Of a stretch of 50,016 nucleotides of DNA, positions 8,248-44,380 are shown one piece after another. The DNA comes from Candidatus Gastranaerophilales bacterium (lineage in GTDB: Bacteria; Bacillota; Clostridia; Lachnospirales; Lachnospiraceae): NCBI GenBank assembly GCA_023663225.1, contig JAMPHU010000020.1, positions 1-50,016 on the forward strand, given 5' to 3'. Below the pieces are notes generated by a model that saw only the letters and a program-made list of their open reading frames with translations, was not told where the DNA came from and did no database searches. Position numbers and translations under genes: made by a program. How positions within the stretch are numbered: the stretch's first letter is position 1; every line of letters begins with the position of its first letter.

Positions 8248-8276
8248 TTGACAAAAAAACGAGGTTATGCTATTTT
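8248..8276 (+). promoter_or_regulatory. recJ promoter
   Basis: A perfect TTGACA -35 (8248-8253), a 17-bp spacer and TATTTT as -10 (8271-8276). The predicted leader contains a small CCCCG...CGGGG hairpin (8284-8304) before the structured element at 8346. Confidence 0.75.
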
Positions 8277-8345
8277 AGCCATACCCCGACAGACTGCGGC
8301 GGGGCATTTGTCTGGAATGAAAAGAAAAAATGAGGGATTAGATTG

Positions 8346-8475
8346 AAAAATAAGCTCGATAGCTTATTTTTCAATCGGCTATTTGTTTCTGAGCGAAAAC
8401 AAATAGCCTTGATGGCAGACGAGAAATCGCCTTCGCGAATTTCTCGTCGCCTCTTCGCGACAAGTCGCTCAGAAA
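8346..8475 (+). repeat. 130-bp structured leader element, copy 1 (5' of recJ)
   Basis: It matches 35661-35790 at 127 of 130 bases. It contains hairpin A (8346-8371, perfect 11-bp stem), hairpin B (8377-8408, 12-bp stem) and hairpin C (8418-8448, 10-bp stem extended by CGC/GCG). The 11-mer TTTCTGAGCGA at 8386-8396, mostly in the loop of B, is the exact complement of 8465-8475, allowing a pseudoknot or an alternative fold. It is open in the recJ frame: a TTG at 8343 preceded by GAGGG would append 48 residues to RecJ. Flanks 8334-8350 and 8478-8495 are near-duplicates, suggesting insertion with target duplication. Confidence 0.85.
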
Positions 8476-8486
8476 TGGGGATCAGG

Positions 8487-10256
8487 ATGGAAAAATGGTT
8501 TGTGGCTGCTAAAAGAGCGGATTTTAATAAGTGGGCGGAGGAATTTCACATCAATCCTGTCCTGGCCAGAATTTTGCGAAATCGCGATCTGACTTCGGAG
8601 GCGGAGGTGGAAAAATTTCTTCACGGCACGCTGCAGGACTGTTATTCCCCGTGGCTTCTGAAGGATATGGACCGCGCGGTGGCGGAGATCTTACAGGCGG
8701 TCGCGAAGGAAAAGCGCATCCGCGTCATTGGCGACTATGACGTGGACGGGATCTGCTCCTCCTATATTTTGACCAGGGGACTGCAACTGTTGGGAGCAAA
8801 GGCGGACACGGCGATCCCCCACCGCATCCATGACGGCTACGGACTCAACGAGCATTTGATCAAAGAGGCGGGGGAAGATGGCATAGAGCTGATCGTCACC
8901 TGTGACAACGGCATTGCGGCGGCCAAGCAGATCGAGCTGGCCGACGCTATGGGGATCGGCGTCATTGTCACAGACCATCACGAGGTTCCCTATGTCATGG
9001 AAAACGGGGAGAAGAGAGAACTTCTGCCCCAGGCGTTGGCGGTGGTGGATCCCAAACAGGCGGGTTGTACCTATCCGTTTCCCCAGATCTGCGGCGGCGT
9101 GGTGGCTTACAAATGTATGCAGGCTTTGTGGGAGCGGACGAAAGATAAACGTTTGGAGACAGCCATGGATGAGTTTTTACAGTTTGCCGCCATCGCTACC
9201 GTGTGTGACGTCATGGAGTTAAAAGACGAGAACCGGATTTTGGTGAAGGAGGGACTTGCGCGGCTGCGCTGTACCAAGAATGAGGGGATACGGGCGCTTG
9301 CGGAGGTCAACGGCATCGATCGAAACAGCCTTTCGGCTTATCATCTCGGGTTTATCATAGGGCCTTGTCTCAATGCCACGGGCAGGCTGGACACGGCGGG
9401 GCGGGCGCTGGAACTTTTACAGAGCGGCACGAAGGCGGAGGCCATGCGCGCGGCCAGAGAGCTGAAAGATTTAAACGACAGCCGTAAGAGCCTGACCCAG
9501 AAAGGGGTGCAGGAGGCGATCGCCTACATAGAAGAGAGACATCTGGAAAAAGATCCTGTCATGGTGATCTTTCTGCCCCATGTGCATGAGAGCCTGGCGG
9601 GGATTATCGCCGGACGGCTTCGGGAAAAATACAATCATCCGGTATTTCTGCTCACCAGGGGGGAGGAGGGCGTCAAGGGTTCCGGCCGCTCCATAGAAGG
9701 GTATCATATGTACGAGCATATGAGCGCCGTAAAGCAGTATTTTACCAAGTTTGGCGGGCATAAGCTGGCGGCGGGCCTCTCCATGCGGGAGGAGGATATC
9801 GAGGCGCTGCGGCGGGCGTTAAATGAGGACTGCGGCCTTGCGGAGGAGGACTTTGCGCCGAGAGTGCATATCGATGTGCCCATGCCTCTTTCCTACGCAG
9901 ACGAGGAGCTTGCCGAAGAACTGGCGCTGTTGGAACCCTTTGGCGTGGGGAATCCCAAACCTCTTTTTGCCCAAAAAGAATTGACTTTTTTGTCGGGTGT
10001 GAAGATGGGGGCCAACAAGAATTTTGCCAGATACAGAGTGCGCACGCCGGAGGGCATGGAGGCGCAGATGGTGTTTTTTGGGGATCTGGAGCGATTTGAG
10101 GCTTTTTTGGACGAAAAATACGGCCCCGGAAGCGGGGAGGCCCTGTATGAGCGGGGCGCGGGGAGGGCCTATTCGGTCTCGGCCGCCTATCAGCTCTCCT
10201 TGAATACCTACAGAGGGCAGACGGAAGTACAGTTTATCATGCAGCATTATTGCTGA
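8487..10256 (+). CDS. recJ: Single-stranded-DNA-specific 5'-3' exonuclease RecJ
   Basis: 589 residues from the ATG at 8487. RecJ degrades single-stranded DNA in recombination and mismatch/base-excision repair. DHH-family motifs are visible: GDYDVDGICSSY (metal-binding Asp), VTDHHE, and the DHHA1 motif GGHKLAAGL near the C-terminus. The frame stays open upstream to a TTG at 8343 with its own ribosome site, giving a 637-residue form whose extra N-terminus is encoded by the 130-bp element. RecJ homology starts at MEKWFV, and GGGGATCAGG precedes that ATG, so I choose 8487. Whether the longer form is made is open. The gene is monocistronic, with a hairpin downstream. Confidence 0.93.
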   Translation: MEKWFVAAKRADFNKWAEEFHINPVLARILRNRDLTSEAEVEKFLHGTLQDCYSPWLLKDMDRAVAEILQAVAKEKRIRVIGDYDVDGICSSYILTRGLQLLGAKADTAIPHRIHDGYGLNEHLIKEAGEDGIELIVTCDNGIAAAKQIELADAMGIGVIVTDHHEVPYVMENGEKRELLPQALAVVDPKQAGCTYPFPQICGGVVAYKCMQALWERTKDKRLETAMDEFLQFAAIATVCDVMELKDENRILVKEGLARLRCTKNEGIRALAEVNGIDRNSLSAYHLGFIIGPCLNATGRLDTAGRALELLQSGTKAEAMRAARELKDLNDSRKSLTQKGVQEAIAYIEERHLEKDPVMVIFLPHVHESLAGIIAGRLREKYNHPVFLLTRGEEGVKGSGRSIEGYHMYEHMSAVKQYFTKFGGHKLAAGLSMREEDIEALRRALNEDCGLAEEDFAPRVHIDVPMPLSYADEELAEELALLEPFGVGNPKPLFAQKELTFLSGVKMGANKNFARYRVRTPEGMEAQMVFFGDLERFEAFLDEKYGPGSGEALYERGAGRAYSVSAAYQLSLNTYRGQTEVQFIMQHYC

Positions 10257-34825: not shown

Positions 34826-34875
34826 GGGAAATGTAATCTAAAGAAATGGCAGGAATTTTGTCAAGGCTATACAAT
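34812..34875 (+). promoter_or_regulatory. BceR-type operator and dependent promoter of the ABC genes
   Basis: TTACATTTTTGTAA at 34812-34825 matches the TNACA-N4-TGTAA inverted repeat described for BceR-like regulators. The site includes the kinase stop codon. A -10 TACAAT (34870-34875) has only a poor -35 (TGGCAG, 34847-34852), as expected for an activator-dependent promoter. The operator is centred about 60 bp upstream of the predicted start of transcription. Confidence 0.65.
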
Positions 34876-34903
34876 GGAGGAAAACAAAGAAAGGAGTACT
34901 TTT

Positions 34904-35656
34904 ATGCATAGCCCGATTTTAGAAGTTTCTGATATCCAAAAGTATTATGGCGGCGGGGGGAATATTACAAAGGCGGTGAACCACATTTCTTTTTCTGTGG
35001 AAAAAGGAGAATTTGTTGGGATTATGGGTGCGTCTGGCTCTGGAAAAACCACATTGCTAAACTGTGTCTCTACTATTGACACTGTGACCAGCGGACATAT
35101 TATGGTGGATGGCAGCGATATAACGCTGCTAAAAGGGAAAAAGCTGGCCGCTTTCCGGCGGGAAAAGCTGGGTTTTATTTTTCAGGATTTCAATTTGCTT
35201 GACACGCTGACTGCGTATGAGAATATCTCCCTCGCGCTCTCCATCTTGGGTGTCAAAGCGGCAAAGATCGATGACAGAGTGGGAAATATGGCGAAGGCTT
35301 TAAATATTGAGGAGGTTATGGACAAATATCCATATCAGATGTCGGGCGGGCAAAAACAGCGTGTGGCCGCGGCCCGTGCGATGGTGAGCAACCCCGCGCT
35401 GGTTCTGGCGGACGAACCGACCGGATCGCTGGATTCCCGTTCTTCAGAGATGCTGCTTGCAATGCTGGAAGAATTAAATCAAAAATTTTCCGCAACGATT
35501 CTGATGGTGACACATGATGCTGTCTCCGCAAGTTTTTGTCATCGTATCTTGTTTATCAAAGATGGAAAGATTTTTAATGAGATTCGCCGTGCGGCAAAAC
35601 CGAGAAAAGATTTTTTCAATGAGATTATGGGAGTGGTTTCGGTGATTGGAGGTTAG
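34904..35656 (+). CDS. bceA: ABC transporter ATP-binding protein, BceA type
   Basis: 250 residues. Walker [10 protein letters not shown] (42-50), signature [10 protein letters not shown], Walker [13 protein letters not shown] and H-loop VTHD are all present. It energises the adjacent FtsX-like permease in peptide-antibiotic resistance and signalling. AAAGGAG at 34888-34894 supports the ATG at 34904 rather than the in-frame ATG at 34874. The 3' end contains the GGAGG that would originally have served the permease gene, now separated from its start by the 130-bp element. Confidence 0.9.
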
Positions 35657-35660
35657 AGTA

Positions 35661-35790
35661 AAAAATAAGCCTGATAGCTTATTTTTCAATCGGCTATTTG
35701 TTTCTGAGCGAAAGCAAATAGCCTTGATGGCAGACGAGAAATCGCCTTCGCGAATTTCTCGTCGCCTCTTCGCGACAAGTCGCTCAGAAA
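35661..35790 (+). repeat. 130-bp structured leader element, copy 2 (between bceA and bceB)
   Basis: It differs from 8346-8475 at only three positions (two in the loop of hairpin A, one in the arm of hairpin B), with identical length and orientation. Hairpins A (35661-35686), B (35692-35723) and C (35733-35763) are conserved, and TCGCTCAGAAA at 35780-35790 again complements the loop of B. The frame is open into the permease: a TTG at 35646 gives 52 extra residues whose element-encoded part is nearly identical to that fused to RecJ. Flanks GAGGTTAG (35649-35656) and GAGGGTTAG (35792-35800) look like a duplicated target. Confidence 0.85.
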
Positions 35791-35801
35791 TGAGGGTTAG
35801 C

Positions 35802-37796
35802 ATGAGATTAATTTTTCGCAATACAAGAAAAAATATAAAGGACTACTTGGTTTATTTTTTGACATTGATGATCGCCGTCAGTATGTTTTATGCTTTTAAT
35901 TCTGTTCAGACACAACCCGCGCTCCATGAACTGGATGCCACAAAACAGTTGCTTTCCGATCAGTTAGGGATTTTGCTTTCCGCGCTGTCTGTCATTGTGG
36001 CGGTGGCGCTTGCTTTTCTGATTTTATATGCGAATCAGTTTTTGCTAAAGCGTAGAAAGAAGGAATTGGGCATTTATACTCTGCTTGGCATGGAAAAACG
36101 AAAAATTGCCGGAATTTTTGCGGGGGAAACATTGTGCGTGGGTTTCCTGTCCCTTGTATGCGGTCTGGTTTTCGGCTTTTTGCTTTCACAGGGGGTTTCT
36201 CTGTTTTCCCTGCGTCTGTTTGCGGTAGATACTGCTAAATTTCAGATGGTATTTTCCGTAAGCGCATGGAAAAAGACGGTGGGGTGTTTCGCATTGATCT
36301 TTTTGATTGTCATGTTGTTTAATGTGCGGACGGTTGCCGGCGTAAAACTGATCGACTTGTTGACTGACCACAGAAAAAATGATGTTTTGGCGATAAAAAA
36401 CAAGGCGATTTCTGTTTTATTGCTTATTTTATCCATCGTCAGCCTTGCGGTATCAGGAGCTCTGTTGGAACAAAATGGAATTTTGCCAAGCAGGGAAAAT
36501 GCATGGTTTCAAATAGCGGCGCTGTGTTGGGCGGTTGGAACGATTCTTTTCTTTTATTCTGTTTCCGCGGTGTTGTTGGCAGTTGTAAAGGAGAATCGAA
36601 AGGTATATTTGAGAGGACTGAATACGTTTCTGACCAGACAGATTGGAAGCAAAATCCGCATGGATTTTGCGGTCTTGTCCCTTGTATGCGGTCTGCTGAC
36701 CGTGGCGATCGGCGGAATTTCTGTCGGGATCAGCTCCGCAGTCACCATGAATGAGGCATCGAAAGCAGCTTTGCCTTTTGATCTGAATGTGTTGGCTCAG
36801 ACAGATATCTGCGGCGAGACGGACATCGTGTCCTATTTGAAAACGCGAAATGTCGATATGGATGAATATGCGGAGAAAATGGAACAGATAAGCCTATATG
36901 AGGCAGATGTGACGTATGGAAGCCTGTTTGATGGACAGAATGTGGATTTGTGGCATATCGACACGGAAATTCCGGAAATGGGGGTGACGGTCATTTCCAT
37001 CACTGATTTTAACCGTTCCCTTGCCATGCAGGGGAGACAGGAGTATTCGTTGGACGGGAATACCTTTTTGATAAACTGTAACTATGAGGGAACCAGACGT
37101 TATATAGAAAAATTTTTGGAGAATCATAAGCAGATTGAGGTGGGAGGTTTTACGCTGGAAGCGGCCTTGGACAAAGTGCTGTCGGAAACCTATTGGATGA
37201 CATCGGTTGGAAATAATGATCGCGGCACACTTATTGTTCCAGATGAAGTCGCGGCAGTCTGTCATAAAGAGGCGAATGTCTTGCTCGTCCTATATGGAGA
37301 AATGACCGACTCAGACGAAGTGCTGCAGAAAATGATTCCGATCGGGTTGGAATGGGAGACGGAAGGGTATCGCTATTCAGAAAAGGTTATGCTGAACGGT
37401 ATGTATTATGGCGTGGGCGCACTCATGGTATTCCTATGCTGCTATATTGGGCTTGTCTTCCTTCTAATATGTGCCGCACTATTGTCTTTGAAACAATTGA
37501 CGGAAACGGCTGACAATATATATCGGTACGGTCTGTTGCAAAAACTTGGCGCGGATGATGCTATGCTTTATAAGACGCTTTTTAAGCAAGTATCTGTTTT
37601 CTTTCTTGCGCCACTTTTGTCCGCGGGTATCTTTTCCACTTTTGGGATCGGAAAAGTGAGTGCGGTTATGGAAGATTTTATGAATATGCACATTTCCACT
37701 CATCTGGGAATGACAGTAAGTATGCTGTTGATTGTCTATGGCGGTTATTTTCTTGCCACATACTTTGCCTGTAAACGCATGGTGCAGGAAAAATAA
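35802..37796 (+). CDS. bceB: FtsX-like ABC permease, BceB type
   Basis: 664 residues from ATG 35802, which has GAGGG upstream. About ten membrane segments are seen, with a large extracellular domain of about 200 residues (about 335-550 region, IPEMGVTVISITDF and neighbours) between segments 8-10 and the C-terminal group, as in BceB proteins that bind peptide antibiotics. The N-terminus MRLIFRNTRKNIKDYLVYFLTL is the usual family start. The upstream 52-residue extension comes from the inserted repeat and has no counterpart in the family. Confidence 0.9.
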   Translation: MRLIFRNTRKNIKDYLVYFLTLMIAVSMFYAFNSVQTQPALHELDATKQLLSDQLGILLSALSVIVAVALAFLILYANQFLLKRRKKELGIYTLLGMEKRKIAGIFAGETLCVGFLSLVCGLVFGFLLSQGVSLFSLRLFAVDTAKFQMVFSVSAWKKTVGCFALIFLIVMLFNVRTVAGVKLIDLLTDHRKNDVLAIKNKAISVLLLILSIVSLAVSGALLEQNGILPSRENAWFQIAALCWAVGTILFFYSVSAVLLAVVKENRKVYLRGLNTFLTRQIGSKIRMDFAVLSLVCGLLTVAIGGISVGISSAVTMNEASKAALPFDLNVLAQTDICGETDIVSYLKTRNVDMDEYAEKMEQISLYEADVTYGSLFDGQNVDLWHIDTEIPEMGVTVISITDFNRSLAMQGRQEYSLDGNTFLINCNYEGTRRYIEKFLENHKQIEVGGFTLEAALDKVLSETYWMTSVGNNDRGTLIVPDEVAAVCHKEANVLLVLYGEMTDSDEVLQKMIPIGLEWETEGYRYSEKVMLNGMYYGVGALMVFLCCYIGLVFLLICAALLSLKQLTETADNIYRYGLLQKLGADDAMLYKTLFKQVSVFFLAPLLSAGIFSTFGIGKVSAVMEDFMNMHISTHLGMTVSMLLIVYGGYFLATYFACKRMVQEK

Positions 37797-41133: not shown

Positions 41134-43185
41134 ATGAAAACGTATAGAATTCATGGAGATAATATTGTTGAGTGTGAACGAATTGCAAACCTTATTATCG
41201 ACACGCTAAAACCTGAGAATATTTCCTCATTTTTGCTATCACCATCAACGGTTGCAATGGATGTCAAGGCTACTTTTATGGGTTTACTTATAGAGTGGCG
41301 GTTAATATTATTGCCGGGATTTAATAAGAATACAAAAAGGCGCTGGAGCGGGAATATTTTTGATGCTCTAAAAGAGGCGGGCAGTTTCTTTGATGAGACG
41401 CCAGATGCTATTATCTCGTTGGTTAAAGGTGAGAGCGAAAAAATAATGCTCGGCATAGAATTCTGTTCTGCTTTGCAGGCTGGAAATCAAGCGTGGCAGC
41501 GTAGTGCTCGTGCATTTTCTACTGGAAGGACAGGATGCCCGTATCTTTACATAGTGGACTTTGTAAAATATGAGCTCGACAATGAAACCAGAAGTCGCAA
41601 GAACCTTAGATTCCCTAATGCTGCTGTACCGTATAGTTATGTAAATTATTCGAAAACAACTGGGAATTTTGTTGCCCAATTATATACAAAATCAGAAGAG
41701 TTTGACAGAACTCGTGATGCTGATATTGCACATTTTGATGAGAACGATTTTGGAAGTAAGGAGCTTGGTGAATTTATAGTTAAACTAATGCTTGGAGTAG
41801 ATACAGCAGAAGAAGAAAATGTGATTCTTGAGAAGAACATGAATGTTGTCCGGTTTCTTGCTGACCACTTTGATGGTAATACCAATTTTACTGCTGAAGA
41901 GTGGCAGGAAGTATATGACTTATCGGACGAGGATATTGTCGATTACTCTGTGGCCAAGCGGCGATTTGGTTTTCATAAAACAGTTGCCGAAAAGAGTCGC
42001 CACGGAGCATCAGAGAATGTGCTTGAATTGGTTGATAATTTAAGTGTTGGACTTGCTTCACGCGATTTACCTTTCGGTATAATTCCTGCGTGCGACAGAC
42101 CTATCTTTGCTGCAAATCTGTCAAGGCTTTATCCAAGTGCTGAAGAACAAATTATTGAATCTATCGGAGCGGATGAGAAGCATTTAATAATAGCCATATT
42201 CAAGGGGTTTAAACCTCATGGTGATGACAATCGACCTGATAGAGGTTTACTACCGTTGGCAGCAATGCTTTCGACTTCTGATGTTGACATTATGACCTAT
42301 ATATATGGACCGATGATAGAAACAAATTTGAACCTTTTAGATAAGAATCCGATTGCATTGGCAAATAGAAACGGGTTATGGCGTTCAATTCTTGCGCTAA
42401 GTAATTATGTTGTTTTGGATATTCCTGTCCTTGCGGGAAAGAAATATGATGCAGAGCGAGTTTACGATACGAGTAAGATTAAAGAGCATTTTATAAACAC
42501 GGGAACCAACAAAAAAATTAGTGCTAAGCCTGCCTTTTCAAATGTTCCTGTGAATTTTGGAGAAGATGACGTGGATACAGGTATTCACTATCTTTTTACT
42601 CATATTATTGGAAAGTATTGCTTTGAAGGAATGTGTAATCCTCCTGGAGGTGATTGGAGTGGTTTTTCTGTTATTGATGGTGAATATGAAAATAGGTGGC
42701 TTTCTCTTCCGAGAGTAAGTGCTGTTGTAAATGGAAAACGTCCAGATCACATATTGGAACTCTTCGATGTATTTGAGAAGCCTCTATTACTGTCCATAGA
42801 ATCAAAGGAAAGATCTTCTGATCTGGAGGAAGATGTAGGGACGAAACTGGTCGCCTATATTGAAAAGCTAATGAACTATATACCAAGCGCAAAACGAAGA
42901 ATTTCCCCAGAAATTCAAGATTGGCGGTGGGGAGATACACTCGTTAATTTCAAAAGTTTCGAGATCATATCTGCTGCTGCATACTTGAAAAAATATGCTG
43001 AGCCTGCAATTACCGTGTTTGGAAAAAATTGTGAAATTCTTTTTGTGATGGAACCCATCATGGCTACAAGAAGAATTGGTTGGAATATTGAAATCATACC
43101 TTCGACAGAGCGAAGCAAAAAATTGAAAAAATTTATTATTGAAAAGTATACTGAGTGTGGTGACAAACAGTTTTCTTTTATTTAA
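41134..43185 (+). CDS. Large restriction-endonuclease-like protein
   Basis: 683 residues, no membrane segment. A PD-(D/E)xK-like signature is seen at RPDHI (Asp538) and LLLSIESKER (Glu556, Lys558), each after hydrophobic strands. A second region near the N-terminus (about 91-127: DAIISLV, LGIEFCSALQAGNQAWQR) also resembles a nuclease core but lacks the standard ExK lysine. Being next to an HTH controller and two adenine methyltransferases strongly suggests the cleavage subunit of a restriction-modification system. The specificity is unknown. ATG 41134 has CTGGAGGAAC upstream. Confidence 0.65.
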   Translation: MKTYRIHGDNIVECERIANLIIDTLKPENISSFLLSPSTVAMDVKATFMGLLIEWRLILLPGFNKNTKRRWSGNIFDALKEAGSFFDETPDAIISLVKGESEKIMLGIEFCSALQAGNQAWQRSARAFSTGRTGCPYLYIVDFVKYELDNETRSRKNLRFPNAAVPYSYVNYSKTTGNFVAQLYTKSEEFDRTRDADIAHFDENDFGSKELGEFIVKLMLGVDTAEEENVILEKNMNVVRFLADHFDGNTNFTAEEWQEVYDLSDEDIVDYSVAKRRFGFHKTVAEKSRHGASENVLELVDNLSVGLASRDLPFGIIPACDRPIFAANLSRLYPSAEEQIIESIGADEKHLIIAIFKGFKPHGDDNRPDRGLLPLAAMLSTSDVDIMTYIYGPMIETNLNLLDKNPIALANRNGLWRSILALSNYVVLDIPVLAGKKYDAERVYDTSKIKEHFINTGTNKKISAKPAFSNVPVNFGEDDVDTGIHYLFTHIIGKYCFEGMCNPPGGDWSGFSVIDGEYENRWLSLPRVSAVVNGKRPDHILELFDVFEKPLLLSIESKERSSDLEEDVGTKLVAYIEKLMNYIPSAKRRISPEIQDWRWGDTLVNFKSFEIISAAAYLKKYAEPAITVFGKNCEILFVMEPIMATRRIGWNIEIIPSTERSKKLKKFIIEKYTECGDKQFSFI

Positions 43186-43203
43186 ATTATATTTGTGAAA
43201 ATA

Positions 43204-43242
43204 TCGCAATAGCTTGCGAAAAACTATAAAATGTAGTATAAT
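43204..43242 (+). promoter_or_regulatory. Controller/methyltransferase promoter with overlapping operator
   Basis: TTGCGA (43214-43219), a 17-bp spacer and a perfect TATAAT (43237-43242). A perfect palindrome, TCGCAA-TAGC-TTGCGA (43204-43219), covers the -35 box, well placed for repression by the HTH protein encoded 27 bp downstream. A looser ACTA/TAGT pair lies in the spacer. Confidence 0.65.
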
Positions 43243-43268
43243 ATCTCTTATAACGGAGGTGAGCGGTA

Positions 43269-43487
43269 ATGGCTGTTTCTTATAATAAATTATGGAAGCT
43301 GTTAATCGACATGAAAATGAGCAAGGCAGAGTTGAGGAGGATTTCCGGCATTTCTCCTAATACAATGACAAAGTTAAATAAGGATGAGGAGGTTACCCTC
43401 GCTGTTCTAAGTAAAATCTGTGAAGCTTTGGGTTCTGATATAGGAGATATCATCGAATATGTAGGCTCCGGTAAGGAGGAAAAATAA
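43269..43487 (+). CDS. XRE-family HTH regulator (restriction controller-like)
   Basis: 72 residues. A single Cro/C1-type helix-turn-helix: MSKAELRRISGISPNTMTKLNKDEE, then a SKICEALGSDIGDIIEY helix. Its size and position match the controller (C) proteins that time methyltransferase and nuclease expression. ACGGAGGTGAGCGGTA precedes the ATG. Its stop overlaps the methyltransferase ATG by one base. It probably binds the TCGCAA/TTGCGA palindrome in its own promoter. Confidence 0.82.
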   Translation: MAVSYNKLWKLLIDMKMSKAELRRISGISPNTMTKLNKDEEVTLAVLSKICEALGSDIGDIIEYVGSGKEEK

Positions 43488-44380
43488 TGAAACAAATTAA
43501 GGACAACAGTGTATCGGCTGTTATCCCGGTTGACTATATATCTAATTCTGATTGTATCGATGGAATGAAAGAACTTACTGATAATTGCGTGGATTTAGTC
43601 ATTGCAGATCCACCATATAACCTTTCAAAAAGCGGTGATTGGAAATGGGATAATAGTGTTTCACTTGCTGGCATGGGTGGTAACTGGAACATCACAAATG
43701 AAAATTGGGATAATATGTCTTTTGATGATTATTTCAATTTCAGTTTAGCTTGGCTAAAAGAGGCAAAACGCATATTAAAGCCAACTGGATCAATGTGGAT
43801 TTTTGGGACTTATCATAATATTGGAATTATAAACGTAGCTTGTCAGTTATTAGGAATAGAGATTATTAACGAAGTCATCTGGTATAAGAAAAATGCTTTT
43901 CCAAATCTTTCAGGGCGAAGGATGACGGCAAGCCACGAAACAATTCTGTGGACTCATTCTGGCGGGAAAAAGAGAACGTATTATTTTGATTATGATTATT
44001 CTAAAAATGGTGAGTTTCCCGGTGATGAATTAAAAGTAGTGGGTAAGCAGATGAGGACAGTATGGGATTTGTCCAATAATAAGAAGGCAGAGGAACTGAA
44101 GTACGGAAAACATCCAACTCAAAAGCCGATCAAGGTGCTGACAAGGATGATTAAACTGTCTTCAAAACCCGGAGATATCATGTTAACCCCTTTTTCTGGC
44201 GCCGGGAGTGAGTGTGTTGCTGCCAAGATGACTGGTAGGCATTACATTGGGTTTGAAATTGAAAAAAAATATTGTGATATTTCTGAGGAACGTTTAACTA
44301 ATGCAGAAGTAAAAAGTGAGCAATTGAATATTTTCCAAATCCCACAGGAGGAAATAGTTGATGATAAAACCGGTAATTAA
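43487..44380 (+). CDS. DNA adenine-N6 methyltransferase, beta class
   Basis: 297 residues. The catalytic motif IADPPYN (Asp41-Tyr44) comes first and the SAM-binding motif PFSGAGSE (235-242) last, the circular order of beta-class enzymes. DPPY points to N6-adenine. The intervening segment (about 60-80 and 135-210) would hold target recognition. It is translationally coupled to the HTH gene and overlaps the next methyltransferase by 20 bp. It is presumably one of two enzymes protecting the two strands of an asymmetric site. Confidence 0.88.
   Translation: MKQIKDNSVSAVIPVDYISNSDCIDGMKELTDNCVDLVIADPPYNLSKSGDWKWDNSVSLAGMGGNWNITNENWDNMSFDDYFNFSLAWLKEAKRILKPTGSMWIFGTYHNIGIINVACQLLGIEIINEVIWYKKNAFPNLSGRRMTASHETILWTHSGGKKRTYYFDYDYSKNGEFPGDELKVVGKQMRTVWDLSNNKKAEELKYGKHPTQKPIKVLTRMIKLSSKPGDIMLTPFSGAGSECVAAKMTGRHYIGFEIEKKYCDISEERLTNAEVKSEQLNIFQIPQEEIVDDKTGN

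Follow-up and report, generated by a model that had tools for sequence, protein, structure and literature searches.

The question raised by this locus is what short repeated sequence stands directly before two unrelated genes of the window (the whole analyzed stretch of 50,016 nucleotides), and how these genes remain translatable. The two copies (8346-8475 and 35661-35790) are identical at 127 of 130 bases, with mismatches at positions 8356, 8357 and 8399, and lie in the same orientation, as the preliminary description had reported. A covariance model returned both as strong matches, with bounds of 8341-8478 and 35656-35793, and the element is therefore slightly longer than the 130 bp first stated; the other four matches listed for the window were weak and on the minus strand, and are attributable to the palindromic arms. 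Pfam domains showed that the genes directly 3' of the copies are indeed unrelated: one codes for RecJ (DHH, DHHA1 and RecJ_OB), the other for an FtsX/BceB-type permease, whose gene comes after that of an ABC ATPase. The two loci comprise the following features, of which the Shine-Dalgarno sequences (SDs) and SD-like motifs were read from the sequence.

8248..8276, + strand: promoter-like site 5' of copy 1 (10/12 consensus match, with TG)
8332..8341, + strand: SD-like GAGGGATTAG left of copy 1
8341..8478, + strand: element copy 1, upstream of recJ (covariance-model bounds, E 1.2e-43)
8477..8480, + strand: SD GGGG, 3' end of copy 1
8487..10256, + strand: recJ from the conserved ATG (Pfam RecJ domains; orthologues start alike)
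34874..35656, + strand: bceA-type ABC ATPase gene (domain search)
35648..35652, + strand: GGAGG left of copy 2
35656..35793, + strand: element copy 2, 5' of the bceB-type permease gene (covariance model, E 2.9e-39)
35792..35796, + strand: SD GAGGG, 3' end of copy 2 (start codon ATG at 35802)
35802..37796, + strand: bceB-type FtsX permease gene (PF02687)

The element had been described as separating a ribosome site from the start codon. Its placement is as described; the separation is not, since each copy has a second SD on its 3' side (GGGG at 8477-8480, GAGGG at 35792-35796) and the host gene is thus not cut off from a ribosome site. The left-hand motifs, GAGGGATTAG and GGAGG, are probably the original ribosome-binding sites of recJ and bceB, respectively, and SD-like sequence is also found to the left of many other copies. 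In copy 2, where the base of the first hairpin is partly decayed, the left SD spacer is overlapped by the stop codon TAG of the ABC ATPase gene (35654-35656). The SD at 8477..8480 is presumably the one used by recJ, because the spacing between the model end and the start codon is most often exactly 8 nt (62 of 96 copies). The promoter-like site upstream would place copy 1 in the 5' UTR of recJ; this is not evidence of function.

Copy 1 and its flanks fold with a free energy of -67.4 kcal/mol, compared with a mean of -41.3 for dinucleotide shuffles (z -6.6). The predicted RNA consists of three hairpins and a pseudoknot, which joins the loop of P2 to the strand directly before the 3' SD:

8341..8376, + strand: hairpin P1, 16 bp (fold; covarying base pairs)
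8377..8408, + strand: hairpin P2 (fold; covariation)
8386-8396, + strand: pseudoknot 5' strand TTTCTGAGCGA in the P2 loop of copy 1 (fold; covariation)
8411..8451, + strand: GATGGCA junction and hairpin P3 (fold; covariation), in which GGC 8414-8416 pairs with GCC 8449-8451, and 8418-8427 with 8439-8448
8465..8475, + strand: pseudoknot 3' strand TCGCTCAGAAA of copy 1, directly before the SD (covariation; its 11 nt are 100% complementary to 8386-8396)
35701..35711, + strand: pseudoknot 5' strand of copy 2 (letters as in copy 1, 27315 bases further)
35780..35790, + strand: pseudoknot 3' strand of copy 2 (letters as in copy 1)

An alignment of 30 copies (29 distinct) supports this structure: the three hairpins and the pseudoknot pair in 98.0% of cells, and 14 base pairs are altered on both sides, while in controls with the partners slid by 1-3 columns only 38-48% of cells pair. 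Of the 107 copies, 103 contain a pseudoknot pairing 6-8 bases long and four contain none; the former count includes a few probable chance pairings (e.g. L180, L088, L289). The two strands change together across types, as CTGAGCGA/TCGCTCAG, CGGAGCGT/ACGCTCCG, CGAAGCG/CGCTTCG and CAGAGC/GCTCTG, and an extra type (GACGAGC/GCTCGTC) was read by eye in four copies of genome G439 (L445, L448, L449 and L451). In these four copies P1 is as usual and P2, P3 and the pseudoknot are different, followed by an SD and a start codon.

The linker between P3 and the pseudoknot reads CCTCC(TT) in L161 and similar copies of genomes G145 and G146, and is absent from some subfamilies; these are the letters of the 16S anti-Shine-Dalgarno, and the linker could pair with either SD. 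P1 of copy 1 (8343-8370) scores as promoter-like on both strands (TTGAAA-16-TATTTT), either as a by-product of the palindrome or as a possible promoter. The idea that the element keeps its SD open was unsupported by nested folding, a model outside which the pseudoknot lies: openness of the 3' SD was 0.372 in elements and 0.384 in shuffled elements (n=94), and it was higher (0.454 vs 0.372) when the element was left out.

A search of the source genome with the 130 bp revealed a dispersed family occupying 17 places. The 20 matches consisted of (i) seven full copies, 98-100% identical and standing before unrelated genes (copy 1 and six others at this identity to it), (ii) three copies cut by contig ends (L008, L012, L013), (iii) three partial copies that retain the 3' end (L009, L010, L014), (iv) four places of a related type with a different 3' end (L011, L015-L017), and (v) three matches to the complementary arm of P1 alone (L018-L020). 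The family extends beyond this genome. A DNA match was obtained in 11 of 61 genomes of a first set (the source genome counted), and covariance model R1, at a threshold of E 1e-7, had matches in 42 of 393 genomes of the order, the positive ones representing 21 of the 174 genera; these 393 genomes, at least 90% complete, were drawn from a larger group, the best candidates (up to eight) were scored per genome, and among the positive genomes the coordinates of G353 and G468 are those of G146 and G145. Element length is about 100-170 nt across the family, and approximately 130 bp in the source genome. Copy numbers can be high: we counted 32 left ends in G439 and 31 in G109, with the reversed pattern found 0 times, and eight G439 copies are identical across 129 bp and have different flanks.

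Rfam 15 gave no match in the window at the gathering score and none for five loci at E up to 1. Phage and plasmid records held no match to the element, and viral contigs none for three exact patterns, so carriage by phages or plasmids was set aside; these negatives also count against mobility, as matches there might be expected of a mobile element. We found no paper on such an element in the open-licence literature, and it may have been published elsewhere.

Across the family, as in the window, the element tends to stand before start codons. An ATG opening an ORF of at least 80 aa lies within 16 nt of 87 of 107 copies, compared with 1479 of 21400 random positions (6.9%) on both strands of the same loci. 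Within 40 nt, a start codon with an acceptable ORF is present at 96 of the 107 copies and is ATG in 89 of these. The 11 remaining copies comprise three first members of tandem pairs (L260, L288, L289), seven copies near an ATG or GTG with too short an ORF (L064, L084, L252, L253, L267, L268, L279), and L065, with no start codon nearby. The 107 copies were drawn from 68 + 37 loci, chosen to leave aside contig-end loci and orthologues such as L182, L183, L186, L188 and L190; from the resulting matches, those below 34 bits (23 + 24, antisense arms and weak matches), L066 (at a contig end), and L176 and L184 (the orthologues of L167 and L162) were excluded. These counts are not independent, because many of the copies come from the genomes behind the model and copies within a genome are related.

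Occupied and empty sites could be compared in G145 and G146, a close species pair in which matching copies have flanks that are 91-98% identical in most cases. For eight of the fetched copies both flanks match between the two genomes, and 11 others were compared with the best place in the partner genome (12 comparisons). The element is present in one genome and absent from the other at nine sites: L161, L163, L170, L172, L178, L180, L185, L189 (partner loci include L161/L210, L170/L214 and L189/L209) and adk, the filled side of which was read across two contig ends. At L172, both the partner and the left flank bear an older right end, and this copy is therefore nested. Among the other loci, the partner of L187 retains a short right end, the upstream flank of L181 is unmatched in the partner, L191 matches solely places in its own genome, and L177 has no place in G145.

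The junctions are of more than one kind. The empty adk site reads AGGAGGTATCACATG and the filled one AGGAGGTAT on the left and AATGGAGGTATCACATG on the right, which repeats the SD. In the case of L161, the empty site reads GAGGTGTACTGATATGG and the filled one GAGGTGTACTA and GGAGATTGATATGG (left and right), showing that the 3' SD is new in this case. L170 resembles adk; L178 and L189 resemble L161, and the sites L161, L178 and L189 hold an SD missing from the partner. The remaining sites are intermediate or drifted, with a spacer in L163 and L180 that differs more than simple insertion predicts. The site pairs are compatible with gain and loss alike. For copies of the source genome and of G439, no element-free partner site and no close relative were found among 39 genomes, and a repeated search of 138 genomes with 7 of 16 probes (best candidates, up to four per genome) also gave none. 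A region of G146 (contig C6, ~42447-43646, containing L191, L212 and L217) carries tandem copies of a small gene, at least one with an upstream element; we take the gene to be similar to Nif11-like peptide precursors.

Left and right flanks of one copy are more alike than expected (4.93 vs 4.55 when permuted within genomes; 105 copies, 0 of 5000 permutations), and they match at 7 or 8 of 8 bases in 24 of 105 copies, compared with 10.5 when shuffled over all copies. Exact 8-base repeats flank several copies, e.g. L262, L264, L278 and L256. Together with the adk site, these data speak for a classical MITE, mobilized by a DDE transposase and flanked by target duplications of fixed length, whose preference for SD sequences would be due to chance; the element also resembles MITEs in being short (<600 bp), non-coding and multi-copy (seven full copies in the source genome, 32 left ends in G439). 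However, a search of copy 1 for terminal inverted repeats, a MITE feature, gave internal hairpins and the pseudoknot pair, and no repeat joining the two ends. As for the constant target duplication of MITEs, 8-base repeats occur in some copies and not in others: flanks are unequal in most of the eight identical G439 copies and likewise in most of nine more G439 copies with both ends, and L161, L178 and L189 hold an SD that their partner sites lack. A simple 8-base target duplication is contradicted by these cases and is at most a partial feature, and we regard a classical MITE as unlikely. In our reading, short homology at the SD joins the ends, and either the element or the target supplies the 3' SD.

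Nested and shortened copies provide further information. Five tandem pairs occur in which 5-6 nt separate the two elements, and in two of them the upstream member is a weak match (34.7 and 47.3 bits); this arrangement indicates that the spacer behind the element's own SD is also a target. Of 30 left-end loci, 29 were inspected, and the 28 of these not situated at a contig end all lead to a right end, in some cases with a base change; in G439, 6 of 18 inspected left ends are without the searched right ends though the contig continues, and four of these six were traced to the other pseudoknot type. Conversely, 40 right ends without the searched left pattern (17 in G448, 3 in G145, 20 in G109) all have an ATG or GTG 3-16 nt further on. 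Among them, 19 contain a sequence resembling the P2 loop, and some of these are full variants in which the left part or P3 is of another kind. In 15, a crude pattern detected neither P2 nor the usual linker, and the shortest consist of nothing but the 13-mer. Such short 3' ends fit 5' truncation, and they would equally arise if selection for the 3' SD preserved this end while the left part was lost. In the mini-elements L376, L382, L400 and L416, a P1-like hairpin is almost directly joined to a CGCTCCGGAATGG right end.

The covarying structure, the placement and orientation, the variation between sites, the tandem nesting and the identical copies with different flanks are direct observations. 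We consider it probable that the element is a short, non-autonomous mobile element that spreads within Lachnospirales by inserting, in the sense orientation, between the SD and the start codon of a target gene. As its RNA would end in an SD behind the hairpins and the pseudoknot, insertion would leave the old SD upstream and put an SD before the start codon, which would then be used for initiation. The variable sites would represent gain rather than loss, and the junctions would arise at the SD by the joining of short homologous stretches; the 3' SD is a target repeat in some cases and new in others.

Movement by a Y1 (HUH) transposase, as in REP or IS200/IS605-like elements, with hairpin ends and insertion 3' of a short target without duplication, would account for the hairpin at the left end and for the left joint, usually located after ...TA; L161 can also be interpreted as conservative insertion after T. 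REP elements (moved by RAYT) and IS200/IS605 derivatives are short, hairpin-rich repeats mobilized in trans, and the element is hairpin-rich as well. In contrast to them it is found at start codons. Of the eight element genomes searched for Y1_Tnp (PF01797), four were positive, the source genome not among them, and no transposase with ends matching those of the element was found within this search; as the assemblies are incomplete, this is not decisive. We regard a Y1-moved element as quite unlikely. With no inverted repeat joining the ends of copy 1, and Y1_Tnp present in only part of the genomes searched, we file the element under neither MITEs nor REP/RAYT.

A similarly improbable reading is a SINE-like bacterial retroelement that homes to SDs, in which the anti-SD strand of the target (CCTCC) would anneal to the SD with which the element RNA ends and prime reverse transcription. 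If true, it would explain (i) the sense orientation and the site directly before start codons, (ii) the SDs on both sides, the left one being the copy of the target and the right one a hybrid, and (iii) the tandem pairs, through entry at the SD of an earlier element, and the copies consisting of the 3' end only. Group II introns begin with GTGTG, as do many copies of the element, and right ends without a left part occur in both; in contrast to these introns, the element is far too short and gave no Rfam match, and the element-free adk site differs from the joined flanks.

The short non-autonomous element that we favor works as a small interspersed repeat, and is a variant of that known class. 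Like BOX, RUP and SPRITE of pneumococcus and Correia elements of Neisseria, it is short, non-coding, strongly folded, multi-copy and presumably moved in trans. According to two sources (PMC3049150, PMC10969869), Correia elements lie mostly immediately upstream of genes and SPRITE is enriched near gene 3' ends. In contrast to all four, the present element occupies the spacer between SD and start codon in one orientation, has an SD at its 3' end and a covarying pseudoknot, and is without an end-joining inverted repeat and apparently without a constant target duplication. Rickettsia palindromic elements are mobile palindromic repeats located inside reading frames and translated, whereas the element lies upstream of the start codon and lacks a continuous frame in most copies. 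No part of a gene is more sensitive than the spot that the family occupies, and it is apparently tolerated there because a ribosome-binding site follows it. Its many natural leader replacements provide material for studies of how structured leaders act on initiation, and if the targeting is real, the family points to an SD-specific integration activity in common gut bacteria.

A conserved cis-regulatory RNA of a regulon (a riboswitch or protein-binding leader), with copies kept nearly identical by gene conversion, would fit the covarying pseudoknot directly before the SD and the narrow spacing between element and start codon. We nevertheless hold it to be very unlikely. There is no evident common pathway among the host genes (recJ, the FtsX permease and others, which in the source genome we assume to be RpiR-, BlaI-, SpoIIAB-, McrB- and Dus-like), the element is present or absent at nine sites between close species, eight copies are identical within G439, and Rfam gave no match. 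Furthermore, a recJ match was present in 117 of 121 genomes, and the 29 best-scoring orthologue loci contain no confident element match; the two weak matches in them do not precede recJ.

The preliminary description is thus partly supported: the element is a leader at translation starts, in one orientation, that varies in presence between close species and leaves the gene translatable. Its further proposal, that the insert adds the same 40-odd residues to the host proteins, we consider extremely improbable: both window copies and five of the seven full copies of the source genome (L001, L002, L005, L006, L007; L003 and L004 contain stops) are open in the frame of the gene, but the frame runs on through the entire element in only 23 of 96 copies overall, and many copies in other genomes begin with GTGTGA. 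In-frame extension is accordingly rejected as a general role on frame counts and possible for single genes of the source genome; the open frame of the window copies fits the common spacing and stop-free frame of their subfamily. The SD at the 3' end accounts better for the preserved translatability.

The 29 recJ loci without a confident element match also speak against a shared extension; at plus-oriented loci read from the true start, RecJ begins with MEKWF, MEKWY or MEKWL at the same ATG. At the recJ locus of G016 (L114), CGCTTCGGAATGGAGATTAAG lies within the last 30 bases, directly before the ATG. By its letters it is perhaps a decayed right end of the element family, in which case entry at recJ may have occurred repeatedly.
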